From a virus, in IMG/VR virus record IMGVR_UViG_3300025769_013579, positions 1-37,994 of that record: a DNA stretch of 37,994 nucleotides; one strand, written 5' to 3'. Positions 4,893 through 37,994 of this stretch are shown one piece after another. The position numbers and the translations under genes are program-made. Within the stretch, counting starts at the first letter, position 1, and every line of letters begins with the position of its first letter. Under the pieces are notes generated by a model. The model had not been told where the DNA came from. It ran no database searches and saw only the letters and a list, made by a program, of their open reading frames with translations.

Positions 4893-7800
4893 CTATCCAA
4901 GCCTAGGTCTTAATAAGTCTGGGTCTATATCTGGTTCTACTTGCACTTCACCAATCTGGAAGTTTCTTGCCCAATCCTGAAGTCTTTGTTCATCTAGAAC
5001 ACCAGGGCTTACAAGCTGATTGCCACCAAGATCGCCTGGGTCTGGTTGTGCAGGTCGGCGGGGAGGATTGCTGACTACATCGCTAGGGTCGCCCTCGACA
5101 CCAATCTGTGTATTTGCACCGTTTATGTCACCAGTTATCTGATTTACTCCTGCCAGGCTTCCTAGTGGTTTAAGCAATGGAGCACGATATTGGAGTTTAT
5201 TTCTTTCCAAAGCATGACTCTCAACAATATTGCGAACATTAGCAGCATAACGAGCAGATGCGGGCATAAGTTGGTCAAGCATTTGAGTCATTGCTGTGTC
5301 AAGCCACTTGTAGTAATCAAGATATTTCTGTAGATCTACAATATCATTCTGGACTTTGCGGAAGAAGATTTCCCGCATTTTTTCCATGTGTTTGTAGTTC
5401 ATTCGGTACTTATTGACTGGCTCACCGATAAGGTTGTTGAAGTCTTTAATAGAGGCAAACAAGTGGAGCATACGATTAGAAATGCTGCGATACATGCTCT
5501 TTTCTATAGCAAAGAAGCTACTAGCAGGCTTCTTAAATGTTCCGAAGACTTCATCATCTACTGAGAGGACTTTTACCATCTCGTTAGAAGCGATGTATTC
5601 TGGTGGTAAAAGTTTATCAGCATAAACATATTGCTTACGAACTGGAGTGGATGAGTTTGTAAAGAAGTCGCCACGACCAGTGTGTTGTCGTAGATTTATG
5701 TTACTGAATGTATCCCCTTGGTATGTGGATTCATAATCTGTTCCCGCAGACCCAGAAGAGGCATCCTGTACTATGAAGCGGCCATTTGTATCTGATCCTG
5801 TTACTTCGGCGAACTCCCAGTTGAGTGCAAGTGTTTGAATACTTGGAATGAAAACGCCAGCACTTGCTGTTTGGAACAAGTAAGCATTTCTAGAAGGATG
5901 TAAAGACCCGTGAGTATCTACTTGTTTTGCCTGCAAATCTACAACTTCTGGTGAGAAGTAATCTGTCCAGTATCTTATACTTGAAGCACGGACATCGGTG
6001 GAAGTTAGAGTGCTTCCTGTAAAGTTTGTTTTGTGTGCCCCGATATAGATCCTTTTTGCGGAACCAATAATAGAAGACCCAGAAGCATAAGTCAAGTCTG
6101 TTGTTGCATTAAAATAGTTTTGCTTGGCTCCTGTGTCGAAATTAACACCATAAAGCCCAAGTTCATATCCTGTTGTGGAAACAGATGAATCTAAAACACC
6201 ATCAGAGAATGGATATCTTTTTGGCTTAATGGACAAGGATAGATTCCAGCGTTCGTTGTCATAGACGTTTCTGAAAATACTGGAAGTTAGAAGAGTATTA
6301 CCAGCACGATCTTCTACAACAAAGTAGGCGTCTTTTACACGGTAAGTTGGTGAGGTTATTTCTGCAAACTCGCCGGGACTCTTAACAGCATACACCTGCA
6401 AACCAAAATCATTTGCTGCCGACTCCCAAGTCAAATCTGTAGAAGTCTGACTTGTGTCGCTTGGTGTATGGAACCCATAAAGAGAGGAACTAACAACTTG
6501 AGGCATAATGTATGAAAGCTGATCCTGCTCATCTTTGTTAGGGAAGATGAACTCACCTTGTAAAGTAAAAGCATATTCATCAAGATCTGTAGAACCACTA
6601 ATGAGACCCACAGAGTTAGCGTTAGAAGAATCATAATACTGATAAACTGTAGCATCGTCATCAGACTGATTAAGCAAAGCTGTAAAATCTACGTACTTCT
6701 TCGTACTAACTGATGTAACATAGCTGCTGGAAAGCTCAAAGTCAGTGTCATCAGAATAAGTATTGAAAGCTAACACCTCTTCACCAACACCCAAACAACG
6801 AATGAAGTTTCTGACTGCCTTCTCGTTACCCTTGGATTTGAGAATAAAGTTGAGGTTATTATAAATGTTCTTGTAGATTGAGTTCTTAATATCTACCAAC
6901 TGTTGATCAAAGTTGATCTGCTCGTCTCTCTGGAAGAACTGTGCTAGTACATCTGCGTTTTCAAACAACTCTGGTGTCTGGATACCTAGATTCTCGACTA
7001 GTCTATCATTATAGGGGAACTCGTCTATTGAATCTGTAAGACTTCCGCTAATATACTTGTTATATTTTAGTTCCCTCAAGGATGTAAGCTGATTATAGAG
7101 CGTATCAAAATAGCCAGAAATGATTTGCGTTATAGATACGATTTCATTATTGTTGTTTTCTTCTTCCTCAATAATCCAGTTTGGAAGGTGGTTCAATAAT
7201 CTAGCATTATTATTGTAGTCGTAGGTTGATCCGCTCAACTCATAGCTACTCTTGACAGAAATATATTCAGGATGATTTGTTCTTACAATGGGGTCGCCAC
7301 GTTCGCTGACTGATTCAATCGATAGTTGATCTATGGCTGAGCCTGTGTTTCTACAGTTTGTTGTATATCCTGTGAATGTACCGTTAGAAACCCTACCAGA
7401 ATAATCTAATGTGACCTGATCAATACTGGCGGTTTGAGTGATGCCTTCATTGAATTTAAAATATACACCCAAAGAAACATTGGCATCATACTTGTCACTA
7501 CCGCCCTCCACATTAGAGAACCAATAACGACCAACTTGTTCAGCGTCTCTTTTTGTTTTCCAGAAGCGGAACTCATCTATAGAAGCTGACAACTTGCCAG
7601 CACCTTCTGTGAGCCCTGTTGAGCCTGATGGGTTTTGGCGGAGGGCACCAATATTACCAATCAAAGTTCCTGTAACGACTGTCTCAATGTTGGAGGTGCC
7701 TGTTATTCCTGTCTCTATACAGGTGCCATTTACATAGAAATCAATTGATGGCACACCAGATGAACCACTGGTATCAAATACAAATGAGAAGTTTCTCCAT

Positions 7801-8561
7801 GTCCCGTCAGAGATTGTTGTTTGCCCTGCGGTTGAGGGAACAGAAACATTGTTAAATCCTGTTGCACCAGACAACATGGTCACATTGAATTGCGTCTCAG
7901 AACCTGAAACAAGCTCTATCCTTAGTCTCCCATAATCTGCACTACCAGAGTCTGTGACCCCGTTAGTAAGATCGAAGATAACTTGTCGTGGGGACTCTGA
8001 TCCAGAGTCTATGAGGTCGTCCTTCTTTAGGAAGAACTCTACTGTTGAGCCGCTTGGACCACCAAACTCAAGATTTGATGTTCTATTTTTTGATTCATTA
8101 AATTTTGTGTTTAGGTGTGGCCCGCCCTTGACTTGAATATATTGATCAAGGGAAGAAGAATAATATCCTGAAGAGTTTGAATATGCGGTGCCGTAGTCTG
8201 CACCGATAGTAACAAAGCCAGTTGATCTAGGATATACCACCTCTAGCATATATTTTTCTAGTGGGTTTATGTTATTGTAGAAGTTTGTCTTCTCTAGCCC
8301 TGAGCCGTCATAAGGATAATCACTAGCGATGTATTCAAACGCATTCTTATAATATTCATAAGCAGACCCAAACTTTACAAAGTTCTCTGGGTCTGAATAA
8401 TCAATGGGTGGAAGGAAATAATCGTTACGTGCCGTAAGAGCATTTAAATGAGCTTCGGACTCTACCCCGTCGCCGACTGTATCAGGCGAACTGCTCTTGA
8501 GGTATTTACTTACCGTTGTGCCTTCTTTGTTGTTTTGATATAAACTCTTTAGGCTGCTCAT
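4893..8561 (-). CDS. Large tail protein with LamG/concanavalin-like domain (1222 aa)
   Basis: Residues about 163-350 look like a LamG/ConA-type jelly roll: a DGTWRNFSFVFD strand pair near 252-263, IDFYVNG near 273-279, and a closing SASIDEFRFWKTKR near 325-338. LamG-like folds bind carbohydrate or protein ligands and are common in phage adhesins. The rest is Ser/Gly/Tyr-rich, with a helical, coiled-coil-like stretch near residues 1040-1150 and a Pro-rich C-terminus. No signal peptide or membrane segment is visible. Its ATG overlaps the stop of the upstream DNRLRE-like gene (ATGA), so the two are probably translationally coupled. A role as a baseplate/tail-fibre protein contacting host surface glycans is inferred from the domain and neighbours. 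The fold assignment is by motif pattern only. Confidence 0.8.
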   Translation of the reverse strand: MSSLKSLYQNNKEGTTVSKYLKSSSPDTVGDGVESEAHLNALTARNDYFLPPIDYSDPENFVKFGSAYEYYKNAFEYIASDYPYDGSGLEKTNFYNNINPLEKYMLEVVYPRSTGFVTIGADYGTAYSNSSGYYSSSLDQYIQVKGGPHLNTKFNESKNRTSNLEFGGPSGSTVEFFLKKDDLIDSGSESPRQVIFDLTNGVTDSGSADYGRLRIELVSGSETQFNVTMLSGATGFNNVSVPSTAGQTTISDGTWRNFSFVFDTSGSSGVPSIDFYVNGTCIETGITGTSNIETVVTGTLIGNIGALRQNPSGSTGLTEGAGKLSASIDEFRFWKTKRDAEQVGRYWFSNVEGGSDKYDANVSLGVYFKFNEGITQTASIDQVTLDYSGRVSNGTFTGYTTNCRNTGSAIDQLSIESVSERGDPIVRTNHPEYISVKSSYELSGSTYDYNNNARLLNHLPNWIIEEEENNNNEIVSITQIISGYFDTLYNQLTSLRELKYNKYISGSLTDSIDEFPYNDRLVENLGIQTPELFENADVLAQFFQRDEQINFDQQLVDIKNSIYKNIYNNLNFILKSKGNEKAVRNFIRCLGVGEEVLAFNTYSDDTDFELSSSYVTSVSTKKYVDFTALLNQSDDDATVYQYYDSSNANSVGLISGSTDLDEYAFTLQGEFIFPNKDEQDQLSYIMPQVVSSSLYGFHTPSDTSQTSTDLTWESAANDFGLQVYAVKSPGEFAEITSPTYRVKDAYFVVEDRAGNTLLTSSIFRNVYDNERWNLSLSIKPKRYPFSDGVLDSSVSTTGYELGLYGVNFDTGAKQNYFNATTDLTYASGSSIIGSAKRIYIGAHKTNFTGSTLTSTDVRASSIRYWTDYFSPEVVDLQAKQVDTHGSLHPSRNAYLFQTASAGVFIPSIQTLALNWEFAEVTGSDTNGRFIVQDASSGSAGTDYESTYQGDTFSNINLRQHTGRGDFFTNSSTPVRKQYVYADKLLPPEYIASNEMVKVLSVDDEVFGTFKKPASSFFAIEKSMYRSISNRMLHLFASIKDFNNLIGEPVNKYRMNYKHMEKMREIFFRKVQNDIVDLQKYLDYYKWLDTAMTQMLDQLMPASARYAANVRNIVESHALERNKLQYRAPLLKPLGSLAGVNQITGDINGANTQIGVEGDPSDVVSNPPRRPAQPDPGDLGGNQLVSPGVLDEQRLQDWARNFQIGEVQVEPDIDPDLLRPRLG

Positions 8562-11860: not shown

Positions 11861-12265
11861 TTAATTAGTCATCGTCGAAGTTATTACTAACTCATCTTCT
11901 TCGTTAAAAGGCAATATGTTATACTTTATACTCACCCTTACTTCGTTTAGTTTTAATGTTGAGTCTTCATCGCTTGTCAAGAAGTTAATCTCTTCTAGTG
12001 AAATACTAGGTATATAAAACTCTACTTGCTCTTTTATAGCTTGTGCGATTCTCCCAAAAGTTTCGTCATTTACACCATCAAACAAATAGCCATATATGCC
12101 CACACCAAATTCTGGTATCATCGGTCTTTCGCCAGGCATCGTGAGAATGAGCATCTTAAGGTTCTGCTGAAACGTTTGCTTCAACGTCTTATTAAGCTGA
12201 TAAGGTCCGTCTGTTGGGTCATAGACTAACGGAAGCCTTGGTGAGATGCCTTCTAACTTACTCAT
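11861..12265 (-). CDS. gp25: gp25-family baseplate wedge protein (134 aa)
   Basis: Size (134 residues, T4 gp25 132) and motifs fit the GPW/gp25 family: LTMPGERPMIPEFGVGIYGY, where the PGER loop and the following G-x-G-x-x-x-Y/L segment are signatures, then a helix QAIKEQVEFYIPSISL. In T4-like phages gp25 sits in the inner wedge core and helps start sheath polymerisation; it is also the counterpart of type VI secretion TssE. The ATG overlaps the end of the 1927-residue gene by 8 nt, and gp6-like follows. This gp25-gp6 pair is the most secure evidence that the phage has a contractile tail. Confidence 0.93.
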   Translation of the reverse strand: MSKLEGISPRLPLVYDPTDGPYQLNKTLKQTFQQNLKMLILTMPGERPMIPEFGVGIYGYLFDGVNDETFGRIAQAIKEQVEFYIPSISLEEINFLTSDEDSTLKLNEVRVSIKYNILPFNEEDELVITSTMTN

Positions 12266-15200
12266 TTCTGTTAATTAGTGTTTCTAGAGTACTTTTCTCT
12301 TCTAATCTTCCTTGAAGAGGTACATTATAGTTTCTATATAAATTCACAAGATATATTCTGAAGAATCTCTGTGAGAGAGCTTTTACTTGATTCTGAACGT
12401 AACTATCTGGAGCACCTTCAGCATTTACTGGTCCCCCAATACCATCTGGACTATCTGGGAACTCTGTGCCAAAAAGTTCAAATATGTTGGCTAATAAGTT
12501 GAAATATGATCCTGGCATCCTGTCATTTGGGAAAAGATTGTCTAATCCCCCTCTTCCTAATCCAGTACTTCCTTGGACTTCTAGTGATAAGAAGTTTTGG
12601 ATCTGCTCAACTACTCTTCTTCTTATAACCCCATCAGGTCTTTCTAGTTCTCTTTGTCCTTCGAGCCCTTCAAGATTATCTCTAATGTAAGCATCTCTAC
12701 TATCTGGATTATAGAATAAACTATTTAGTAGCCGAAGACGGTCGCTTACTCTTTCCTGTAGTTCTGTTGAAATTCTTTGAGAAAGATTTTGCGGTATTGG
12801 TTGTCTTCTACCACCACCGTCTAAGTCATCTCCAACTAGATTTCCAGCACCAAAGTACTCAGGAAATAAACTGATCAACGTGGCGGGTTCGGATCTTTGG
12901 TCTGGCGAGAACTGAACTCTTGATCCCTGATTTCTCAAGAATAACAAGTCTCTAAGTCTTAGTATTCTATCTCTGGTTAAGAGCCCATCTGAAATCTCTT
13001 CTCTCAATATTGCAATTCGTTGCTCTACCTGATCTGAGTAGTAATAAGTTACTTCTTGTGTTCCGTCGTAGTATTCAACATTCACTGGGAAACCAACAAA
13101 AGTTGGAGTAAAACGCTGAACCACTTGTCTTTTTATTGCCGTAAGTAGGTTATCATCTGCACCAGCTATTTCTAACAGAATCCTATACTGAGTATCACTA
13201 TACCTATTAGCATACTGTATGCCACGATCATAATAGATCATATAAGAAGCAATCTGAAAAGCTACTGGGAAATAATAGGCACCCACAAGAAGTCCAAGTT
13301 GCGTTATTTGATTTCTATTGTAGAACTGACCTATAATCTGCTGGGCTGCACGGGCTTGGTCTGGATCCGCAATACCATATTCTTCAAAATTGACATTGAA
13401 CAATAATCTATAAAACTTAACAAGAGTATTTTCATATAGCTGTTTGGTATTAGTAGGAGCTTCTGGGTCAAATATTGATTTGTTTATACCTGTATATTCA
13501 GAGGTTGTTGAAATATTATCCAACATACCAAGATAGATTGATTCTATAATGTTCCTCATATTTTCCGCAGGAGTTAAATCCTCTCTAATGATTGGATTTC
13601 TGTTATAGTCCTCATCCTCTGAATCGTGAGGGAAAACAAGTTTAATGTATTGAATAGATTCATAAAAAGGTCCAATCATCTCTCTAGGCGTTAGTTCGTC
13701 AGTTATCTTCTTATGAAGATAATCTACGATAAGCTGAGTTGTTCCAACACTGCCCCAGCAAGTATATACACGAGCAAGCGGCATGATGTTCATAAAGAAA
13801 GAAATCATTCTTGTCTGCAAAACTTGCACTGCTGATTCTGCCCTGAAGGTGTCTTCCTGGGTAACACAAAAATCATCCGTCTTCTCAAGGGGAAGCTTTC
13901 CTATGGCTGCAACATATCTAGGCATTCTCCTTCTACCTGTATCGTTTATTACAGCTATATTAATCTGCGTATCCAGCCTTTCACGATAGTTTTGAATACT
14001 AACAACATCAGCATCTCTATCAGAAGCTTGCAGTGCCAACTGGTTATTTGTTGGGTTTTCAACTGGTAGTCCTACGGAGAAGTTTCCATATAACTTAGGT
14101 ATGCCACTTAGTCCGCCCTGCCCCTCATTAAAGAAGCCATAGTTTATGCTAGGAAGAAGGGTATCATTTACAAAAAGTTGGTATTGATCATCTACTCTAA
14201 AGTTGAAGTTCCCAACCTGAAGATTGTCAAAGATTCTGTAATCTACAGAAGTAAAATCTCCATTCTCTCCTACGGTCTGTGTTTCCGAGGATATTGATTT
14301 TTCATTATGAACAATCCCCGCAGGATTATAATAAGCAACAGTTGGAGTTTGGCGATCGGCATCCCAATAAACTATTCGTATATCACCCTTAGATGGATTT
14401 GAGCAGTATAAGTTTGAGGCACCAGCATATCCACGATATGGAAATACGCTCTCTTGTTGTCTTAAATATCCATATGTGGCATTTGTTATTTTATTAAGTT
14501 GTGTCTTTTCAATAGTTGATGGATTTCCATCGGGCTGAAGGGGTTGATACACTCGACTTAAACTTTCTGGACTCAATAACGCAGTTCCTTGACTTTGGGC
14601 ATTATTTAGTAGCTTCTTTAGAGGAGAAGGTGCGTTATTTATAGCATAGTAAGCTGTGCCATAAATATCAAAGGGTTTTGTTGGCGGATTTCTATATTGT
14701 GGAATGGGTATCTTAGGAAGCTCTCCAGTTCCACTATATGTCATCCAAAAGAAGTTATAGACATTATCAGATGTCCAGGCGTTTCTTCTTGATCCTATCT
14801 GTCCGCCAGTTAGAGTAACGTTATCATCATCAACTACAGTCGTTATTTGTGTTCTTTGTCCAAAACCAGCAGGTGTTTGGAAAAACACATCTCCATTTCT
14901 AGATTTATAAAGCTGATTTATACTTCCTTCCCTTAGTTTAGTCCCAAGCTGGTAGTATATCTCAGTTCCCATTTTTGAGTTATATAAGTTGTACTCATAG
15001 TTTTGAACTCTTCTTTGCTCTCTTCCAAACAAATTTGACAATAGACCAGCAAGCCACTCAGATAATGAGTTACTCAAGCCAGCTATAAACTCCAAGAGAT
15101 CATCGTACCAAGACATTGTTGGCAATGAGTCAATCAATCTCTCTAGTTCAAATTTTATATTAGACAAATCTCTAAGCCAATTACATAAGTTATTAATTTT

Positions 15201-18041
15201 ATTAATCTTATCACTGACTATGTCTGAATATTGAGCTTCTATCTCTGGAATCTCAAAGTTAAGCTCCAGTGGATTTGTGTAGTTTTCCCTCTGATCACAG
15301 TATGCCTCTAAGGGAGAGCGGAAAGGCAAATCACCAAATTGACCTTGCCCCTCTATAGCATCCCCAAGGAGAATGAAAAAGTCAATAATCTTTTCTTCAG
15401 TAAAGTTTAGTGTATTATATTCCCTTGGATCAATTATTACACGATTTTCTTCACCAGGATTTGAGAAAGGAGAAATATAATTGACCACGTGATCACTTGA
15501 TAAAGTCTCAAATAGGTGGTTTATCAACTCAGAATTGGCATCACCGTCAAGAAGTTGCTGTAGTTCAACTGGGGTTGCCATTGCAGAGACATCCTCAAGA
15601 ACATTTTGAATCTGTTCCAAGGTCGCATCTGAAGTTTGTCCTTGTTCATTGATATTGAAAAGGTTCGCTAATCGAGCTATTTCTACTAAATCTACTTCAT
15701 CAACGTAGTTTGATAAATCAGTAAATCCAAAGTCTTGCTTCTTGAAAGAGTTTTTTAACCCACTTGCTGGTCTTTTATTTCCATCTGGTCCGCAACCCAA
15801 CAATGCACTAATAACATCTTTTGCTATACCAGCAACAATAGATTTAACAAAGTTTAGCAAAATTGTTTCAATAGCTTTTCTATAGACTTTTGATTGCTTA
15901 GTCTTTAGAGAAATCATATTCCTCTTTGTAAATTCAATCTTTATTGGCTCATCAAGAGTCTTCCTTACAAGAGCATTAGCTACTGGAGGTGCTCCAATGG
16001 GATCTAAGAAACTATCTTCAATAAAGTCTCCAAGGACATCCAACGAGCAGAATATCTGCTGATTGATCGCTTGTTCCACCTGCCTCTGAGCTAGTGCGGG
16101 GTTCTGTGCAAATCTTGCAGCATCAGAGAGCCTTTGTTTGGTTAGTTCATCTTCTATGATTTCCTGACGGAGAAGTATGATTGTTTCCCTGATTAATGAT
16201 CTTACTTTTGTTTTCCCTGTAGCAGCTTGCCAAAACCTTAAAGCGTACTTAGCTGCCTTTGCTTGTCCTGTATTGCAGTCTATCGATTGAAGGGTTGAAG
16301 ACATTCTATAAGACAATGGCCTGTTTGAGAATAGTCTCTCATATTCAGCAGGACTGGTTTTGGATAGTTCAGATAGCTTAGTGAATAAATCTTTTCTTTT
16401 TCTCCTTCGGCGTTCATCTTGTGCAGCGGAAGCATTAGCTCTCTTTGCTTTAACGGCATCAATCCTTGATGATGGAAACGCATATTTGGATAAAAAGTCT
16501 AAAGCATCTTCTCGTGTTGAAGGTGTTGTACTCTTCACATCATTATAGATTGGATAACTATTCTTTATGAACGAAAAAGTTGTTGGCGTAAAAAGAGAGA
16601 ACGCATTTGCTATACGGGCTTGCTCTTCTTCTATATTAAGATATGTTGTGTTACCAGTTCCCTGATAATAAAAACTTCCGTTGATACAAATGTGATCCAG
16701 CAAATAATCTTCAGTAAAGAACATCTGGACGAGGTCTTCGTCTTCTAGGGATATTTTATTGTACCCGTAAAATAGAGACAACAAATCAAAGAAAGACTCA
16801 AGTCGGTCAGCCTCTCTACCTAAATCAAGTCCATTGAGAACCTGCGGCGTTAAACCGTCGTCTAAAAGCTTTTCGTTGTATTCTACAAGGATGCCCCTGA
16901 CTGAGAACATATACCTCAACATATCTTCCACACGGAAGGTTACACTGTTTGCGGTTTTGTTTTCTTCTCCGATTATTCTCTTTGCCTTCTGGAGGGAGGA
17001 AAGTTCATACTCTTCAAAAGAAGGTCTGTCTTCAGATTCTAATGAATCTGGTAGATTATTAACATCGGATGAGTTTATTTGTAAGCAGTAGATCCACCTT
17101 GAGCCTGGTCTTAAGTCTCTGTAGGTTAAAAGAGAAAAAGTTTCAGGGGCTGAGTATTTTGATAATAACCTCTGAAAGTTGGCTTCCGAGTGCTTACCTG
17201 TGAGCTTCAGTATCTCACGAATGCTTGTTTCTATAGCATCGTTATATCTTCCTCTCTGACTCTCAGTGTATCCAAGCCAGGTCGCCACTGCATCTGCTCT
17301 TTCTCCTAGTCTCAAGGAGTTGAAAGCATACGCTCCAGTTTCTGTGCGTCCTGTTCGCTTGACATAATAATATTTTAAATCAACTGGGTTATAATAAACT
17401 CTGTCATTATCTTCCCCTGGAAGTCCGTTCTTTCTCCAGTCATATAAATCTACATTTGAATCTGAGCTTATATAAGTTGTAACGCTAGGACTTAGGTTCA
17501 ATAGGTCAAGCCCAACTTCCTCGCTGTATTGAACCTCTGGAAGATCAAGAGCTTTTCTAAGTTTATTCTTATACTGCCTAGAGTGGGCGGGTGGAATAGC
17601 TATTAGATTGGCGATATCCTGATTTAAATCAGGGCGTATATCATTGTTTCTATATTCCCTCTGATACGTCAATTCAGAAGTTTCTGAAGAATATTTCTCC
17701 AGGACACCATTCCTTCTTAGCTCCTCTACTATTAGTTGGAGGGCTTCTGTTGCTTTCGTATCGCTGATTTTCTGTACTTCGTTCCCTACAACTTTACCGT
17801 TCTGTGGATGAAGTGCGAAATATGCCAACATATCACTTGTAGTGATTGTGCGATTACGACCTGCTAGTTCCAACCCAATTGCGGGAAACTCATAAAAATA
17901 TAAATAACTCTCATGAATCGCATCGATAACGAATTTGTTAGATTCATTTTCATAATCGTAACCAACACCACGGCGTTCCTCCGTGTTAATGCTTTCCGCA
18001 TAAGGGTTGATTATTCTTCGTTGTCGTTCAGTGAGAGCCAT
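12258..18041 (-). CDS. Giant virion protein of unknown fold (1927 aa), probably baseplate-associated
   Basis: This is an uninterrupted 1927-codon frame starting at ATG 18041, with AGGTAAG 6-12 nt upstream. It begins MALTERQRRIINPYAES. It mixes Tyr/Asn/Arg-rich segments with helical blocks, for example a charged stretch near residues 520-560 (AKRANASAAQDERRRRKRKD). A region near residues 730-750 (FVKSIVAGIAKDVISALLGC) is hydrophobic enough to be an amphipathic or membrane-active helix but is not a clear membrane anchor. No catalytic motif or signal peptide is recognised. It sits between the spike/lysin genes and gp25/gp6, where large baseplate hub or wedge proteins are usually encoded. I do not recognise the family; a baseplate role is inferred from position only. 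Confidence 0.82.
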   Translation of the reverse strand: MALTERQRRIINPYAESINTEERRGVGYDYENESNKFVIDAIHESYLYFYEFPAIGLELAGRNRTITTSDMLAYFALHPQNGKVVGNEVQKISDTKATEALQLIVEELRRNGVLEKYSSETSELTYQREYRNNDIRPDLNQDIANLIAIPPAHSRQYKNKLRKALDLPEVQYSEEVGLDLLNLSPSVTTYISSDSNVDLYDWRKNGLPGEDNDRVYYNPVDLKYYYVKRTGRTETGAYAFNSLRLGERADAVATWLGYTESQRGRYNDAIETSIREILKLTGKHSEANFQRLLSKYSAPETFSLLTYRDLRPGSRWIYCLQINSSDVNNLPDSLESEDRPSFEEYELSSLQKAKRIIGEENKTANSVTFRVEDMLRYMFSVRGILVEYNEKLLDDGLTPQVLNGLDLGREADRLESFFDLLSLFYGYNKISLEDEDLVQMFFTEDYLLDHICINGSFYYQGTGNTTYLNIEEEQARIANAFSLFTPTTFSFIKNSYPIYNDVKSTTPSTREDALDFLSKYAFPSSRIDAVKAKRANASAAQDERRRRKRKDLFTKLSELSKTSPAEYERLFSNRPLSYRMSSTLQSIDCNTGQAKAAKYALRFWQAATGKTKVRSLIRETIILLRQEIIEDELTKQRLSDAARFAQNPALAQRQVEQAINQQIFCSLDVLGDFIEDSFLDPIGAPPVANALVRKTLDEPIKIEFTKRNMISLKTKQSKVYRKAIETILLNFVKSIVAGIAKDVISALLGCGPDGNKRPASGLKNSFKKQDFGFTDLSNYVDEVDLVEIARLANLFNINEQGQTSDATLEQIQNVLEDVSAMATPVELQQLLDGDANSELINHLFETLSSDHVVNYISPFSNPGEENRVIIDPREYNTLNFTEEKIIDFFILLGDAIEGQGQFGDLPFRSPLEAYCDQRENYTNPLELNFEIPEIEAQYSDIVSDKINKINNLCNWLRDLSNIKFELERLIDSLPTMSWYDDLLEFIAGLSNSLSEWLAGLLSNLFGREQRRVQNYEYNLYNSKMGTEIYYQLGTKLREGSINQLYKSRNGDVFFQTPAGFGQRTQITTVVDDDNVTLTGGQIGSRRNAWTSDNVYNFFWMTYSGTGELPKIPIPQYRNPPTKPFDIYGTAYYAINNAPSPLKKLLNNAQSQGTALLSPESLSRVYQPLQPDGNPSTIEKTQLNKITNATYGYLRQQESVFPYRGYAGASNLYCSNPSKGDIRIVYWDADRQTPTVAYYNPAGIVHNEKSISSETQTVGENGDFTSVDYRIFDNLQVGNFNFRVDDQYQLFVNDTLLPSINYGFFNEGQGGLSGIPKLYGNFSVGLPVENPTNNQLALQASDRDADVVSIQNYRERLDTQINIAVINDTGRRRMPRYVAAIGKLPLEKTDDFCVTQEDTFRAESAVQVLQTRMISFFMNIMPLARVYTCWGSVGTTQLIVDYLHKKITDELTPREMIGPFYESIQYIKLVFPHDSEDEDYNRNPIIREDLTPAENMRNIIESIYLGMLDNISTTSEYTGINKSIFDPEAPTNTKQLYENTLVKFYRLLFNVNFEEYGIADPDQARAAQQIIGQFYNRNQITQLGLLVGAYYFPVAFQIASYMIYYDRGIQYANRYSDTQYRILLEIAGADDNLLTAIKRQVVQRFTPTFVGFPVNVEYYDGTQEVTYYYSDQVEQRIAILREEISDGLLTRDRILRLRDLLFLRNQGSRVQFSPDQRSEPATLISLFPEYFGAGNLVGDDLDGGGRRQPIPQNLSQRISTELQERVSDRLRLLNSLFYNPDSRDAYIRDNLEGLEGQRELERPDGVIRRRVVEQIQNFLSLEVQGSTGLGRGGLDNLFPNDRMPGSYFNLLANIFELFGTEFPDSPDGIGGPVNAEGAPDSYVQNQVKALSQRFFRIYLVNLYRNYNVPLQGRLEEKSTLETLINRNE

Positions 18042-33147: not shown

Positions 33148-33804
33148 TTAGTTGCTGAGTTCTTCAAGTTTGTTATATAGTTCAGGGCTAATTCGTTTTA
33201 CTTTTTCTTTGTTCCCCAAAAAGTACTGCTCAAATCCTGTTGCGAAATATTCACGGAGAGAAACAGAAGCATAAGGGCGGACGAACATACCAGTAGTAAT
33301 CATCCTTAGAAGGTTTTTACCAACACGCTTGTAAAGGAAGTCGTCAAGTGCGTAGTCATATTTTAAGTCCAAGAAGTTAAACTCGTCTGTCCAATATCCC
33401 TCTGAACGGAGTTCGAATTCCAACTCTGAACGCTTCTTGCGGAACTCTTGTTTGATCTTCCCGTCCCCGTAGATCTCTTCTGGATAAAGCATTTCAACGT
33501 GGTGAGCAAACTCATGGATAATGTCGTCAATCAGGTCGGCAGCGTTGTCTTGTTCGTGTGTAATATAGAAAACTCCGTCCTTATAGACAGCGTTTGCATC
33601 ACGTTTATCAAACACCTCTTGGTGACCAATCTCAACGCCTTTTAGCCCCTTGAAGAACTTTGCGGGAATAACATCTTCAATAGAGCGAAAGATCGCTTGA
33701 CCATCAACATTATTTGTTAGTTCGTCCCTTTGGAAAACTGGAACATTCCCAAACTTAAAATGTCGTGTAGTATCTTTGACTTTCTCAAAAATGTAATCTT
33801 TCAC
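33148..33804 (-). CDS. Zinc metallopeptidase-like protein, HEXXH (218 aa)
   Basis: The DIIHEFAHHVEML block carries a full HEXXH zinc motif (H97, E98, H101), and a glutamate in LREYFATGFEQYF (E185) about 84 residues later could be the third ligand, as in gluzincin-type folds. Upstream, IFRSIEDVIPAKFFKGLKGV and the exposed ITHEQDN strand before the motif recall the ATLF-like (lethal-factor-type) peptidase domain. No signal peptide, so it would act inside the cell. The start is GTG overlapping the PhoH stop as GTGA, with GGAG 5 nt upstream. The substrate is unknown: it could be a phage head/tail precursor or a host protein. Fold assignment is by motif only. Confidence 0.78.
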   Translation of the reverse strand: MKDYIFEKVKDTTRHFKFGNVPVFQRDELTNNVDGQAIFRSIEDVIPAKFFKGLKGVEIGHQEVFDKRDANAVYKDGVFYITHEQDNAADLIDDIIHEFAHHVEMLYPEEIYGDGKIKQEFRKKRSELEFELRSEGYWTDEFNFLDLKYDYALDDFLYKRVGKNLLRMITTGMFVRPYASVSLREYFATGFEQYFLGNKEKVKRISPELYNKLEELSN

Positions 33805-35105
33805 AGAATCTCCGAAGCTAATGTTGCTAGTTGTGATCTTTCGCCTTTAGTAAGTGTGATATGACCTGCAATATCGTACTGCTTGAATTTCTCAACCGCA
33901 TGAGTCAACCCATTAGATACTGAATCTACGTATGAGTTATCAATCTGCTGGATATCTCCTGTTAGTACGAGCTTGGTGCCATGACCTACCCTTGTTATTA
34001 TAGTCTTTAATTCGTGTGCCGTCAAGTTCTGTGCTTCATCTACAATCAAAAAAGCATTTGCAATTGATCGACCACGAATGTAAGTCATCGCTTCTATTTC
34101 GATTGTGCCTTGCTCTATCTGCATATCTAATGCCGTTCTATCACCGAATAGGTGCTCTAGATTATCACGTATTGGTGCAATCCATGGGAGCATCTTCTCT
34201 TCCAAGGTGCCAGGCAAAAACCCAATATCTCTACCCATGGGCTGAACAGGTCTTGTTATAATTAATTTATCGTACCCTCCGCTGGCTCCTGTTGTGTTAA
34301 TAACTTGCTCCAATGCACAAGCAGTAGCTAACAATGTTTTACCAGTCCCTGCGGGACCAGTCAAAGAAATGACATGTATATCTTTATCAAACAAAAGGTC
34401 CATAGCATACTGCTGTTCTTTATTCTTTGCAGACAGTCCCCAAATGTTTTTAAACTTATTTACTTTTCGAAGGGGCTTATCATACCCCTCGAACTTACAA
34501 ATAGCAGATTTGTTTGTAGCTTCATTTTTAAGTATCAAGTATTGATTTGGATAGAGTTTTACTTTCTGCTCCTCCAACATGAATGGCTCACCCGTATAGA
34601 ATCTATCGATAGTACTAAACTCTACCTCTAGCTCTTGCGTACCCGTAAAAAGGTTCTCTACTGAGCTAATAGCCTTTTGTGGCTGGTAATCATGACACTC
34701 GATTCCGTGAGCATCACATTTAACTCTCATATTGAGGTCCCGTGATACAACGGCGACTTCATGCCCTTTGTCTTTTAACCTGAGTGCGATAGCAATGATT
34801 TTATTATCTGAGTCGTCTTCATTCATTCCTGGTGGCATAAACTTCTCATCATAATGAGCAGCAAATACTTTGCCCTTGCCACGTCCAAGAGCAACACCAT
34901 CCATAAGACTGCCCTTTTTTCTCAAGGTGTCCAATACCCTGTTCATTGTGCGAGCGTTCAAGCCTGCGGTGTCTTGTCGGTGTTTGTGCTTATCTATTTC
35001 ATCGAGTACAATTGTTGGGATCGCTATGTTGTGTTTCCCAAATGCTAGTATAGAACCTGCTTCAGTAAGATACACATTAGTATCTAAGATTATAGTTTTC
35101 TTCAT
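33801..35105 (-). CDS. phoH: PIN-PhoH fusion ATPase (PhoH2-like, 434 aa)
   Basis: The N-terminal PIN domain (about 1-140) keeps its acidic nuclease residues: D8 in ILDTN, E36 in VLDEID, D100 in DDSDNK and D123 in SRDLNM. A linker (about 150-215) is followed by the PhoH P-loop ATPase: Walker A GPAGTGKT (250-257), RPVQPMGRDIGFLPG, Walker B FLIVDEAQN (352-360) and TGDIQQID. In bacteria PhoH2 proteins are RNA-unwinding and RNA-cutting enzymes; single-domain PhoH is a common marine phage gene, while the PIN-fused form is less usual in phages. The gene is the first one downstream of the tmRNA terminator, so it needs its own promoter or read-through. Confidence 0.93.
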   Translation of the reverse strand: MKKTIILDTNVYLTEAGSILAFGKHNIAIPTIVLDEIDKHKHRQDTAGLNARTMNRVLDTLRKKGSLMDGVALGRGKGKVFAAHYDEKFMPPGMNEDDSDNKIIAIALRLKDKGHEVAVVSRDLNMRVKCDAHGIECHDYQPQKAISSVENLFTGTQELEVEFSTIDRFYTGEPFMLEEQKVKLYPNQYLILKNEATNKSAICKFEGYDKPLRKVNKFKNIWGLSAKNKEQQYAMDLLFDKDIHVISLTGPAGTGKTLLATACALEQVINTTGASGGYDKLIITRPVQPMGRDIGFLPGTLEEKMLPWIAPIRDNLEHLFGDRTALDMQIEQGTIEIEAMTYIRGRSIANAFLIVDEAQNLTAHELKTIITRVGHGTKLVLTGDIQQIDNSYVDSVSNGLTHAVEKFKQYDIAGHITLTKGERSQLATLASEIL

Positions 35106-35162
35106 ATTTTCACCGTAAAAAGTGGGTTTATATAACTAGTTCTGAGCGGGTATTTAGAGTAA
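35106..35162 (-). promoter_or_regulatory. Possible promoter region of the PhoH operon (weak)
   Basis: The 57-nt leader between the tmRNA terminator and the PhoH start must hold a promoter if the terminator is efficient. On the minus strand TCTAAATA (35151-35158) is one base from the T4 late motif TATAAATA, and TATATAAA lies further in; no good sigma70 pair is visible. Either could serve phage late transcription by the gp55-like factor. The signal is weak, because short AT-rich matches occur by chance in this genome. Confidence 0.3.
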
Positions 35163-35163
35163 T

Positions 35164-35186
35164 AAAAAAGCCGCCCGAAGGCGGCT
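35164..35186 (-). terminator. Intrinsic terminator of the tmRNA
   Basis: Reading the minus strand, a perfect 7-bp stem AGCCGCC/GGCGGCT closed by a TTCG tetraloop (35169-35186) is followed by six T (35164-35169). The stem begins at the final A of the tmRNA CCA end, so the transcript would be trimmed at its 3' end. This is the strongest hairpin in the window and shows that the tmRNA is an independent transcription unit. Confidence 0.93.
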
Positions 35187-35512
35187 GGTGGAGGTAGGGA
35201 GAATTGAACTCCCGTCTTGTCCGTTTCCAAATCAAGGTCATTCACAAGGTTAGACTAGCTTTTATCGTCGGCAAGTCTCTAGACTATATTACTTGTTTCG
35301 CTACACACAAATAATCAAAAGCGTTTATAGGACAAAAATACGACTTTCTGTTTTTCGGTTGTCGCCACCTCAAGTCTAGTCAGGTTATTAAGCTGCTAGT
35401 GCTAGTTCTGCGTTGTTGTTTGCAGTTATAGTTTTAAGCGTTTTTAGTGAGCCACGCTTCCCTCACCCTTGCACCCATTCATCTTTCACGTCAATCGATT
35501 CCGGTTACCCCC
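35186..35512 (-). ncRNA. ssrA: Transfer-messenger RNA (tmRNA, one-piece, 327 nt)
   Basis: The 5' GGGGGUA pairs with UACCUCC before A73 and an encoded CCA, giving a 7-bp acceptor stem with G3-U70, the alanine identity pair. The T-arm is GGGAG-UUCAAUU-CUCCC. Upstream of the tag, GTGAG/CTCAC and AAGCGT/ACGCTT (35436-35466) form pseudoknot PK1, ending 12 nt before the resume codon. The tag frame is A-N-N-N-A-E-L-A-L-A-A followed by TAATAA. tmRNA with SmpB rescues stalled ribosomes and marks peptides for ClpXP through the LAA end. Length 327 nt compares with 363 nt in E. coli. It has a sigma70 promoter and an intrinsic terminator. No smpB is visible in the window, so host SmpB is presumably used. 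Confidence 0.96.
35385..35423 (-). other. tmRNA tag-peptide reading frame (ANNNAELALAA)
   Basis: Eleven codons start at GCA (35423) and end with GCT before two TAA stops (35385-35390). With the alanine carried by the tmRNA itself, the appended tag would be A-ANNNAELALAA. The ALAA end matches the ClpX/ClpA degron. GCA is chosen as the resume codon because it lies 12 nt after PK1, as in E. coli, and begins a GCAAAC pair common in tmRNA tags. Confidence 0.85.
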
Positions 35513-35522
35513 TAACAAAAAT

Positions 35523-35551
35523 GTTATACACCAAGTTTAAATAGTTGTCAA
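35523..35551 (-). promoter_or_regulatory. sigma70-type promoter of the tmRNA
   Basis: On the minus strand TTGACA (35546-35551, a perfect -35) and TATAAC (35523-35528, five of six matches to the -10) are separated by 17 nt. The expected start near 35516 leaves about four nucleotides before the mature tmRNA 5' end at 35512, which RNase P would remove. A host-type promoter points to transcription by unmodified host polymerase, probably early or throughout infection. Confidence 0.9.
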
Positions 35552-35757: not shown

Positions 35758-36534
35758 TTAAATATCTAGTCCAAGGTCCATTTCACTTTCACTAGAATCT
35801 CCAAGGTCTTCTTTTTCCTCTTCGTATTCTGGTGTAGAAACATCTGGAAGTGTGTTGGCTAGTTCATCTTCAAACTTATCAAAATAGAGAAGCAAGTTTG
35901 TGATAAGGTAATCGTAGAAAACATTTTGATCTGTTTCGTCTGCTAGCATATCGTAGGCATCAACGATTTGTTTTTCTACCTTCTTAAATGTAACAGCAGC
36001 AAAGTTACGACCTGTTTCATTCTGGTCATCTAGTTTTACGAAATCATCCTCATCTGAATCGCCATCTCCATCAATATCAATGAACTCACCTTCTACAGAT
36101 TGTTCTTCTTTCCCGTCATCTTGTGGGTCTAGGTCAATTGATATTTTCTCTAGGAGAGTATCTCTATCGATTTCGTATTCTATATTTTCTGTTTGTTCTT
36201 CCCCTTGAGTTGCTGCTTCGATTGGGCGAAGGGTATTCTCAACGGCATGAACAATGTGGTTCTTAAATGAATCTCTCTGCTCTTTATCGCTGGTGAGCAT
36301 CTTGTAATCGTTTTCAATAGTTGGAATAATCTTTTCCAGCAAGTCAGCTAGAACATTGATACCAGTGCTACGACTAGCTTCCTCAGTACCTGTCTCAGCT
36401 TCAATAAGCTGACGGACTGCTTTCCTTATCTTCTCTTCAGCAAGTCTCTGTTGTTCAAGCTTTAGAGTAATTCTTTTACGAATGTGTTCTCTGATAAGTT
36501 CTTCAGCGATTAGTTCATTTCGGTTAATAGTCAT
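35758..36534 (-). CDS. Acidic protein with calcium-loop-like motif (258 aa)
   Basis: I use the ATG at 36534 (MTINRNELIAEELIREHIRK); an upstream extension would lie inside the previous gene. Residues 1-50 form a charged helix, 60-105 another helical block, then an acidic section with DIDGDGDSDEDD (153-164), which fits the DxDGDGxxDxxD calcium loop of thrombospondin-3/dockerin-type repeats. Residues 175-230 are helical and the C-terminus is again very acidic (SSESEMDLGLDI). The composition recalls scaffold or prohead-core proteins, which are acidic and helical, but no family is recognised. It is separated from the upstream gene by only 10 nt, so they are probably co-transcribed. Confidence 0.78.
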   Translation of the reverse strand: MTINRNELIAEELIREHIRKRITLKLEQQRLAEEKIRKAVRQLIEAETGTEEASRSTGINVLADLLEKIIPTIENDYKMLTSDKEQRDSFKNHIVHAVENTLRPIEAATQGEEQTENIEYEIDRDTLLEKISIDLDPQDDGKEEQSVEGEFIDIDGDGDSDEDDFVKLDDQNETGRNFAAVTFKKVEKQIVDAYDMLADETDQNVFYDYLITNLLLYFDKFEDELANTLPDVSTPEYEEEKEDLGDSSESEMDLGLDI

Positions 36535-36544
36535 AGTACTGTAA

Positions 36545-37994
36545 TTATCTCCGTCTTTGTCGTTTCGCTCTTCTAGTAGTACTTCTTTTTTTTGTGCCGC
36601 CGATTGGGAGAGAATATCCGCCGACAGCACCACCAGCCATGCCAGACATTTCTTCAATGGCTGTATCAATGAAACTGGTTACGTCTTCAGTAGTTGTAGT
36701 GAGCGCCGCCCAGATAGCATCAGCATCTGCATTTGGCGGAATATAAGAAACAAAAGTTTCCTTATCACCATCAGCAATAGCCTTTCTCATATCACGGGCA
36801 CTATAAACAACTCCAGCACGAGACTGAACTGGGTCTTCAACGATGTCCTCGACATTTACACCAGGGTTATGCCGCTCAGCATACGATTGAGCACGATCAA
36901 AGCGAGTATCCCCTACATCCTTGCTGCTCTTCACTAAAAGGATTGTATCTCCGTCTTTAGCAGTTGCTGGGTCAGCAACAAATTCATAGACTGCTTGGAC
37001 TGGGCTGCGGTAGTCTGCAATTTTTGCAGTGATGTTGGATTCTCCATTTTCGAGATATTCATCCCAAATCTTGAGAGCCTGTGCATTGCTTACTTCTGGA
37101 TAATCAACGGGAGAAATCAAAACAACAACTTCATCAACATCAGGTCGTTTAGCAATCTTATTTACATAATCAAAATGACCACGATGTGGTGGCTTAAACT
37201 TACCTGGGAAGAGTGCTATTCTCTTTCCGTCCTCTTCTGTAATAACTCTAGCATTAGCATTGAGAGATTCATTTGTTTTTCTTTTTAGGTTCCCATAACG
37301 GAACATTCCAAGAATCTGGTTCAATGGAGCGAAGTTACCAGCGAACTTATATGTGTGCCCGTTATAATCGAAGACCACCGCCTCAACTGGAGTAGTAATC
37401 TTAGAGAAGTCTTTGATTTTGTTTAGGTGTCGCTGCATAACAGCCATTGCTTCAGGGTTTTCAGTACCAACATTGGTAATTTCCCTTACAGCAGTTGCGA
37501 GTTCTTCTTTGAGTCGCATAACTTCTTTTTCGTTGTCTGCGATAAAGACACTCTCCAAGCCCTTAAGAAGATCTACTGTAAAATCGTGGATAGCAAGTTC
37601 CAATGGTTCGATAGATTGCTGGAGAAGTGATTTGCTTGTTGCGATTATAGCATTCAAATCCTGTAGGTCTTGTGGGTTAAGTCCCTTCTTTAGAGCCCTT
37701 AATCCCATATTTCCAGGAAGTTTAAGAATATAATTTATAATTTCTTCCCGCAGGTTTGGCGGAAGATCACTATCCATCCCGTTCATTAGTCTTTTGAACA
37801 TATAATCTACAACTGTAGAGTCGTCGTTTAGACCCTCTTTTCTCATTTCATTATTGATTTTAGAGACTGCCTTGTTTAGGGCTTCGCCGTCATCCTCAAT
37901 CTTTTTGATATCAACCATAGCACGACGAGCAAGTCTAAAGTCATCTTTATGGAGTTTCTGCTCCATTCTTTCCATAGCATCATCTAGAGTTTCT
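36545..37994 (-). CDS. Protein with NMNAT/cytidylyltransferase-type domain (partial, N-terminus outside window)
   Basis: The frame is still open at the right edge (codons for E-T-L-D-D-A precede a Met at 37975), so the true start is outside. The visible 482 residues comprise a helical N-terminal part (residues 1-195 from that Met), a short beta section with GHTYKFAGNFAPLNQILGMF, a nucleotidyltransferase domain (about 253-415), and a basic tail (TKKRSTTRRAKRQRRR). The transferase shows LFPGKFKPPHRGHFDYV with the HxGH motif (H264-R-G-H267) and YSARDMRKAI in the place of the ISxTxxR motif. Related enzymes join NMN or CTP-type nucleotides (NAD synthesis or lipid/sugar activation). The fusion to helical and basic parts is unusual; the substrate is unknown. 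Confidence 0.84.
   Translation of the reverse strand, partial: ETLDDAMERMEQKLHKDDFRLARRAMVDIKKIEDDGEALNKAVSKINNEMRKEGLNDDSTVVDYMFKRLMNGMDSDLPPNLREEIINYILKLPGNMGLRALKKGLNPQDLQDLNAIIATSKSLLQQSIEPLELAIHDFTVDLLKGLESVFIADNEKEVMRLKEELATAVREITNVGTENPEAMAVMQRHLNKIKDFSKITTPVEAVVFDYNGHTYKFAGNFAPLNQILGMFRYGNLKRKTNESLNANARVITEEDGKRIALFPGKFKPPHRGHFDYVNKIAKRPDVDEVVVLISPVDYPEVSNAQALKIWDEYLENGESNITAKIADYRSPVQAVYEFVADPATAKDGDTILLVKSSKDVGDTRFDRAQSYAERHNPGVNVEDIVEDPVQSRAGVVYSARDMRKAIADGDKETFVSYIPPNADADAIWAALTTTTEDVTSFIDTAIEEMSGMAGGAVGGYSLPIGGTKKRSTTRRAKRQRRR

Follow-up and report, generated by a model that had tools for sequence, protein, structure and literature searches.

A fragment of a viral genome (IMG/VR record IMGVR_UViG_3300025769_013579, positions 1 to 37,994; we call this whole stretch of 37,994 bases the window) carries a complete one-piece tmRNA gene (ssrA), and this gene is a fixed trait of the phage clade that the fragment belongs to. 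tmRNA in phages was already known, and its presence in this T4-related lineage is new. We consider it likely, from comparisons of sequence, that this is a working and selected phage ssrA gene that keeps ribosomes recycling during infection with the help of host factors.

The gene lies on the minus strand at 35186..35512, is 327 nt long, and encodes its own CCA. Infernal aligned it to the Rfam family RF00023 over the full model (35512..35186, model positions 1-374, not truncated) with 91 bits and E = 2.6e-34, where the gathering score is 47 bits; RF00023 was the only Rfam family matched in the window. The original prediction had placed a complete phage tmRNA at exactly these coordinates without giving the strand, and all of the features that it listed (G3-U70, the T-arm, PK1, the encoded CCA, and the tag ANNNAELALAA followed by a double stop) are present in the sequence. 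The acceptor stem (within 35190..35512) pairs GGGGGUA (35512-35506) with UACCUCC (35196-35190) and includes G3-U70; A73 is at 35189 and the CCA is at 35188-35186. The T-arm, GGGAG-UUCAAUU-CUCCC, occupies 35197..35213, and the pseudoknot PK1 (GUGAG/CUCAC plus AAGCGU/ACGCUU) occupies 35436..35466 in the RF00023 alignment. The tag frame runs through 35385..35423 (GCA AAC AAC AAC GCA GAA CTA GCA CTA GCA GCT TAA TAA); a degenerate tag pattern matched the window once and matched none of 100 shuffled versions. Helix P5 (35376..35399) forms between the last part of the tag frame and the bases that follow the stops. All of these elements are on the minus strand. Infernal found no match in the window to the permuted-tmRNA family, and the RNA is collinear with the one-piece model, so it is not of the two-piece type.

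Both Infernal and ARAGORN had been suggested as checks, and they disagreed: ARAGORN made no tmRNA call in the window. We attribute this to limited sensitivity, because ARAGORN independently called 31 of 42 genes from the main clade (see below) with identical tag frames; it also called 6/6 bacterial controls. Since about a quarter of the copies in this clade escape ARAGORN, surveys that are based on it undercount phage tmRNAs.

We found relatives of the window in viral contigs by way of the PhoH2 gene that lies just downstream of the tmRNA. The main clade comprises 45 contigs whose PhoH2 proteins are 65-96% identical. The tmRNA is present in 42 of these, and the remaining three break off no more than 185 nt from phoH2, leaving the site uncovered. 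Five further contigs bear the tmRNA: three are relatives and two were found with the exact PK1 word across the whole viral collection (44 contigs contain this word, and each was already in the set or is one of the two additions). Thus the tmRNA is present in 47/47 contigs of the clade that cover the site (PhoH2 at least 65% identical), and it is always directly upstream of PhoH2. Because it has been kept in every relative examined, the phage very probably uses its own tmRNA during infection, if conservation of sequence is a guide.

As judged from the alignment of 34 distinct sequences, the structure of the tmRNA is held by selection through compensatory changes. The alignment covers 10 helices with 57 pairs; standard pairs fill 94.6% of their cells, and 20 pairs have changed on both sides. 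There are 100 double-change cells, as compared to 33 in shuffled alignments and 5-19 if the partners are slid; the slid-partner control preserves relatedness, which shuffling does not, and the two controls agree. The alanine-type acceptor (G3-U70, A73, and the CCA end) is invariant in 34/34 sequences. Loss of the acceptor or T-arm pairing in close relatives had been named as evidence that would count against a tmRNA; in our alignment the pairing of both is complete (100% of cells) and includes compensatory changes (both-sided changes affect two pairs of the T-arm). Both-sided changes also affect three pairs of P5, and PK1 is nearly invariant, with 98.8-99% of its cells paired.

The gene also has signals of its own for transcription. 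On the minus strand, a sigma-70-type promoter at 35523..35551 (TTGACA at 35551-35546, a 17-nt spacer, and TATAAC at 35528-35523) matches 11/12 consensus positions, and its TATAAC is 10 nt from the start of the tmRNA. Within the clade, 30 of 34 distinct upstream regions score at least 10/12 against the sigma-70 consensus, versus 4% of shuffled regions. A promoter scan of the single sequence missed this promoter because the scan demands a T at the last -10 position, and it was recovered by comparison across the clade. At the other end, an intrinsic terminator (AGCCGCC-TTCG-GGCGGCT-TTTTTATT; 35159..35186, minus strand) begins at the terminal A of the CCA, and in 29 of the 32 distinct sequences downstream, the CCA is followed by a GCYGCC/GGYGGC hairpin and its T run. 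Given the conserved promoter and terminator, the gene looks like an independent transcription unit that host RNA polymerase could read; that it does so is something we infer.

The tags evolve within the clade. We tabulated 42 genes (the window and 41 relatives), and 41 of them encode 11 different tags of 11 residues: ANDDFQLAQAA (14 genes), ANDDFNMEMAA (7), ANNNAELALAA (6), ANDDFQLALAA (4), ANDDFEMEMAA (4), and six singletons. All 41 standard-length tags end in AA and are followed by a UAA stop (TAA), there are synonymous codon changes among them, and the endings vary between ALAA, AQAA, and EMAA. Another relative (L056, PhoH2 69%) has the tag ANDNFNLEMAA. The 3' half of the tag sits in P5, and the opposite strand of P5 changes along with the tag codons. 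In one gene (L098, at G035:53965-54291), the frame after the resume codon is just Ala-Ala-stop and the remaining RNA is intact. This is either a natural two-residue tag within an 11-residue clade or an assembly error. An Ala-Ala-only form of the tag is known from Fermentibacterota (PMC11915505), and because L098 has only Ala-Ala, the full degron may not be strictly required everywhere.

More distant tmRNAs have other forms. Eight outgroup tmRNAs (L267, L269, L270, and L272-L276) are one-piece with 13-residue tags of the ANDNVEFDYALAA type. Their matched 3' ends are CACTT, CACCT, CACTA, or CACTG and not CACCA, so these RNAs would need to have CCA added after transcription. The tmRNA of another distant relative (L268, at G068:117-565) contains a 61-amino-acid open reading frame that is nested between the tag and the 3' half, with its own ribosome-binding site and ATG and with its stop codon in the 3' strand of P2.

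The original prediction called this a T4-type phage, and in the broad sense this holds. In the near-complete relatives, which are 172-179 kb long, we found homologues of T4 gp17, gp18, gp20, gp21, and gp23 with 27-37% identity, and tblastn matches to T4 head, packaging, and sheath proteins in two of them (G031 and G014) reach 7e-50. By these homologies the lineage is part of the T4 superfamily, broadly defined. In the 38-kb window itself, only baseplate proteins matched, and one of these is closest (about 31%) to proteins from a Microcystis phage, an uncultured phage, and Flavobacterium phages. We found no close sequenced isolate (the best identity for PhoH2 was 37%). When we searched T4 and five other large phages as controls, no tmRNA exceeded the cut-off. 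Two very large proteins without PHROGs matches (1927 and 1222 amino acids; window positions 12258-18041 and 4893-8561) flank the baseplate genes. Also, G031 encodes a complete PrkA serine kinase (AAA_PrkA plus the PrkA C-terminal domain; L166:6443-8395), and G014 has a protein of about this size that shares its Walker-A motif (L171:18072-20003).

Where the gene came from is harder to say. When we compared the window tmRNA and a sister from the clade with 50,697 phage records by BLAST, nothing matched the body of the RNA, and there was no BLAST match to the tmRNA in E. coli genomes. It had been proposed that comparing tags would lead to the closest bacterial source, yet none of the GTDB r220 genomes in our pattern scan bears ANNNAELALAA: the 52 loci that matched, which recovered about 50 bacterial tmRNAs, do not include any of the phage tags, with the proviso that the pattern asked for TAATAR directly behind the tag and would miss hosts with other stop contexts. 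Most of these loci have tags of alphaproteobacterial type (for example, ANDNEAFAVAA, ANDNVRLAMAA, ANDNSRLALAA), and a few have others, such as ANDNVELALAA. A BLAST search of 399 Pseudomonadota genomes gave only local matches of 22-66 nt, most of them around the tag and P5; the ones that we read were tmRNAs of gammaproteobacterial type with the tag ANDENYALAA. Because these matches are so short and local, we cannot name the donor.

Compared to bacterial one-piece tmRNAs (RF00023), the phage RNA has the same parts: a tRNA-like domain with G3-U70, the T-arm, PK1, a tag frame, P5, further pseudoknots, and CCA. It differs in its tag, which the pattern scan did not find in GTDB r220 bacteria, and in its score, as three bacterial copies have 174-200 bits versus 91 for the window copy. 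Phage tmRNAs had been described to us as known but rare; they are indeed known, but with tmRNAs in 402 of 18,146 phage genomes (PMC9004378), we would call them uncommon rather than exceptional. The original prediction was aware of no described role in a T4-type phage; a two-piece tmRNA has already been described in the T4-like marine phage Melnitz, and roles have been proposed for it but not tested (PMC9004378). As in our phages, the Melnitz/Mosig-type tmRNA has a promoter upstream and there is no integrase. In contrast, the Melnitz RNA is permuted, two-piece, and of alphaproteobacterial type, it is associated with a glutamine riboswitch, and it is present in only 17 of 47 related contigs (PMC9004378), while the RNA that we studied is one-piece, is followed by a terminator, and is fixed in its clade. 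Complete or partial tmRNAs are also known from Bxz1, Wildcat, phage G, and DS6A (PMC4131195). The Bxz1 group and Wildcat resemble our phages in being tailed phages with a complete tmRNA, and for Wildcat's, high expression during lytic growth has been demonstrated (PMC4131195, PMC7474061), but these are mycobacterial phages of other lineages. The only match between mycobacteriophage tmRNAs and the tmRNA of one of our distant relatives was 46 nt at the 3' end.

If the tmRNA does work in infection, then it would depend on other proteins, and most of these would come from the host. The original prediction suggested looking for smpB elsewhere in the genome; we did not find SmpB in any of 50 related records, which are mostly fragments, and the control bacteria were positive. 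Huge phages also encode a ribosome rescue RNA, but there SmpB is reported to be included (PMC7162821). Similarly, SspB was found in 0 of 31 related records (mostly fragments; bacterial controls positive), and we saw no ClpX-like unfoldase among the Walker-A proteins that we checked in two relatives. A ClpP-like protease is encoded by all 10 of the main-clade records of at least 97 kb (for example, L158:13695-14297 in G031 and L170:17293-17895 in G014). Its alignment with bacterial ClpP spans the length of the protein, and the triad of Ser (AMSCGA), His (MIHD or MVHD), and Asp (HADWF) is kept in all five of the full sequences that we read. PHROGs labels this family as a head maturation protease; a role in the head seems less needed because these phages also have a gp21-type prohead protease. 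The ClpP-like protein is found as well in many outgroup records, with a detected tmRNA or without one (G049 and G074). We also considered a phage FtsH (AAA plus peptidase M41, with the HEAGH motif; L159:5888-7714 in G031, and also in G026) as a general partner, and we dropped this idea because FtsH is in just 2 of 48 records.

The next gene downstream of the tmRNA encodes PhoH2, a PIN_4 plus PhoH protein of 434 amino acids (33801..35105, minus strand; PF13638 and PF02562). Its acidic residues D8, E36, D38, D100, and D123 and its Walker motifs are invariant. The role of PhoH2 in phages has been called enigmatic, and clearing jammed ribosomes is one of the options that have been suggested (review, PMC7824862). 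A conserved neighbour with a HEFAHH motif (33148..33804, minus strand) has weak Pfam metallopeptidase matches, below the cut-off, and is probably a small phage metallopeptidase. On the other side, the conserved upstream neighbour (35758..36669, minus strand; 303 amino acids) has no family assignment.

We propose the following course of events. Host RNA polymerase would start at the tmRNA gene's own sigma-70-type promoter and stop at the gene's own terminator, and host enzymes would trim the RNA at the encoded CCA. Host AlaRS would recognize G3-U70 and A73 and charge it. SmpB and EF-Tu from the host would then bring it to ribosomes that are stalled at the broken ends of mRNAs, which should be frequent while a large lytic phage is breaking down the host's transcripts and putting others in their place. 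The ribosome would switch to the GCA resume codon, add ANNNAELALAA, terminate at the double stop, and return to phage mRNA. The tagged fragment would go to ClpXP, possibly with the phage's ClpP-like protein as the peptidase subunit. Each of these steps, from expression and charging to the use of SmpB, rescue, and the link to ClpP, is one that we infer, and we offer the links of the tmRNA to ClpP and to PhoH2 as hypotheses. A puzzle for the rescue explanation is why a second copy should be needed when the host presumably has an ssrA already. Furthermore, E. coli SsrA remains stable during infection by T4 (PMC9697503); since it survives, and T4 itself lacks a tmRNA, a phage copy is not generally needed.

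Other explanations for the gene do not all compete with rescue, and our estimates for those that refine it overlap with our estimate for rescue itself. One such refinement is that PhoH2, as a PIN-PhoH ribonuclease and helicase, cuts mRNA, and the tmRNA clears the ribosomes from the cut ends. The two genes are directly adjacent in 47/47 clade contigs, and of 19 tmRNA-bearing records from distant relatives, 18 have the tmRNA upstream of PhoH2 at a distance of no more than 10 kb, with different RNAs and intervening DNA; the invariant PIN acidic residues and Walker motifs also speak for the module. But the genes that flank the pair are equally syntenic, so inherited gene order is enough to explain the linkage, and we do not claim a functional pair from adjacency. 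Also, a terminator separates the two genes, the tmRNA is on the opposite strand in three distant relatives, and many phages with PhoH2 have no tmRNA. We think that this module is improbable, if worth keeping in mind. Somewhat more doubtful is the idea that the main purpose of the gene is not rescue but to add a phage-preferred tag, so that host ClpXP or the phage ClpP would clear host proteins or recycle amino acids. The variation of the tag within one clade, the absence of all of these tags from the bacterial tmRNAs that our pattern recovered, and the ClpP in all of the large main-clade relatives would fit with this. On the other hand, none of SmpB, SspB, or ClpX, which could make the tag private, turned up in the records searched, and ClpP also occurs in relatives with no detected tmRNA. 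And because tmRNA tags proteins only on stalled ribosomes, it could not choose host proteins.

It seems very unlikely that the RNA is a dominant inhibitor that titrates host SmpB and blocks the host's own trans-translation. There is a proposed precedent, the tmRNA of mycobacteriophage DS6A that consists of the tRNA-like domain only (PMC4131195, PMC11915505), and as we found no phage SmpB, the phage RNA would compete for the host's. But a decoy would not need the mRNA-like domain, PK1, the resume codon, or the tag frame, all of which have been maintained. Even less plausible is a passenger, that is, a remnant of a host ssrA that was taken up by an integrating phage. Integration at ssrA is common, and prophages can contain partial copies of the gene (PMC9004378). 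We rejected this origin: integrase was found in 0/31 related records (mostly fragments; bacterial controls were positive), and the gene is complete, has its own promoter and terminator, is under selection for its structure, and stays at one fixed site. The matches to gammaproteobacterial tmRNAs, short and mostly at the tag, do not point to a close bacterial source either.

Returning to ribosome rescue, we can speculate that these phages carry part of a tag-and-destroy pathway: a tmRNA whose tag is unlike those known from bacteria, a ClpP that takes over as the peptidase for the host's unfoldase, and an adjacent PIN-PhoH RNase that creates the stalls. We would bet against this full combination. 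If it were true, then rescue during infection would be run on phage parts, except for SmpB and ClpX. In any case, the presence of the tmRNA across the clade, its compensatory changes, and its evolving tag are good comparative evidence that such a phage gains from having its own ribosome rescue. The natural series of tags (ALAA, AQAA, EMAA, and Ala-Ala), together with a ClpP companion that is conserved, makes it possible to test an old question, namely what phages gain from an ssrA gene.
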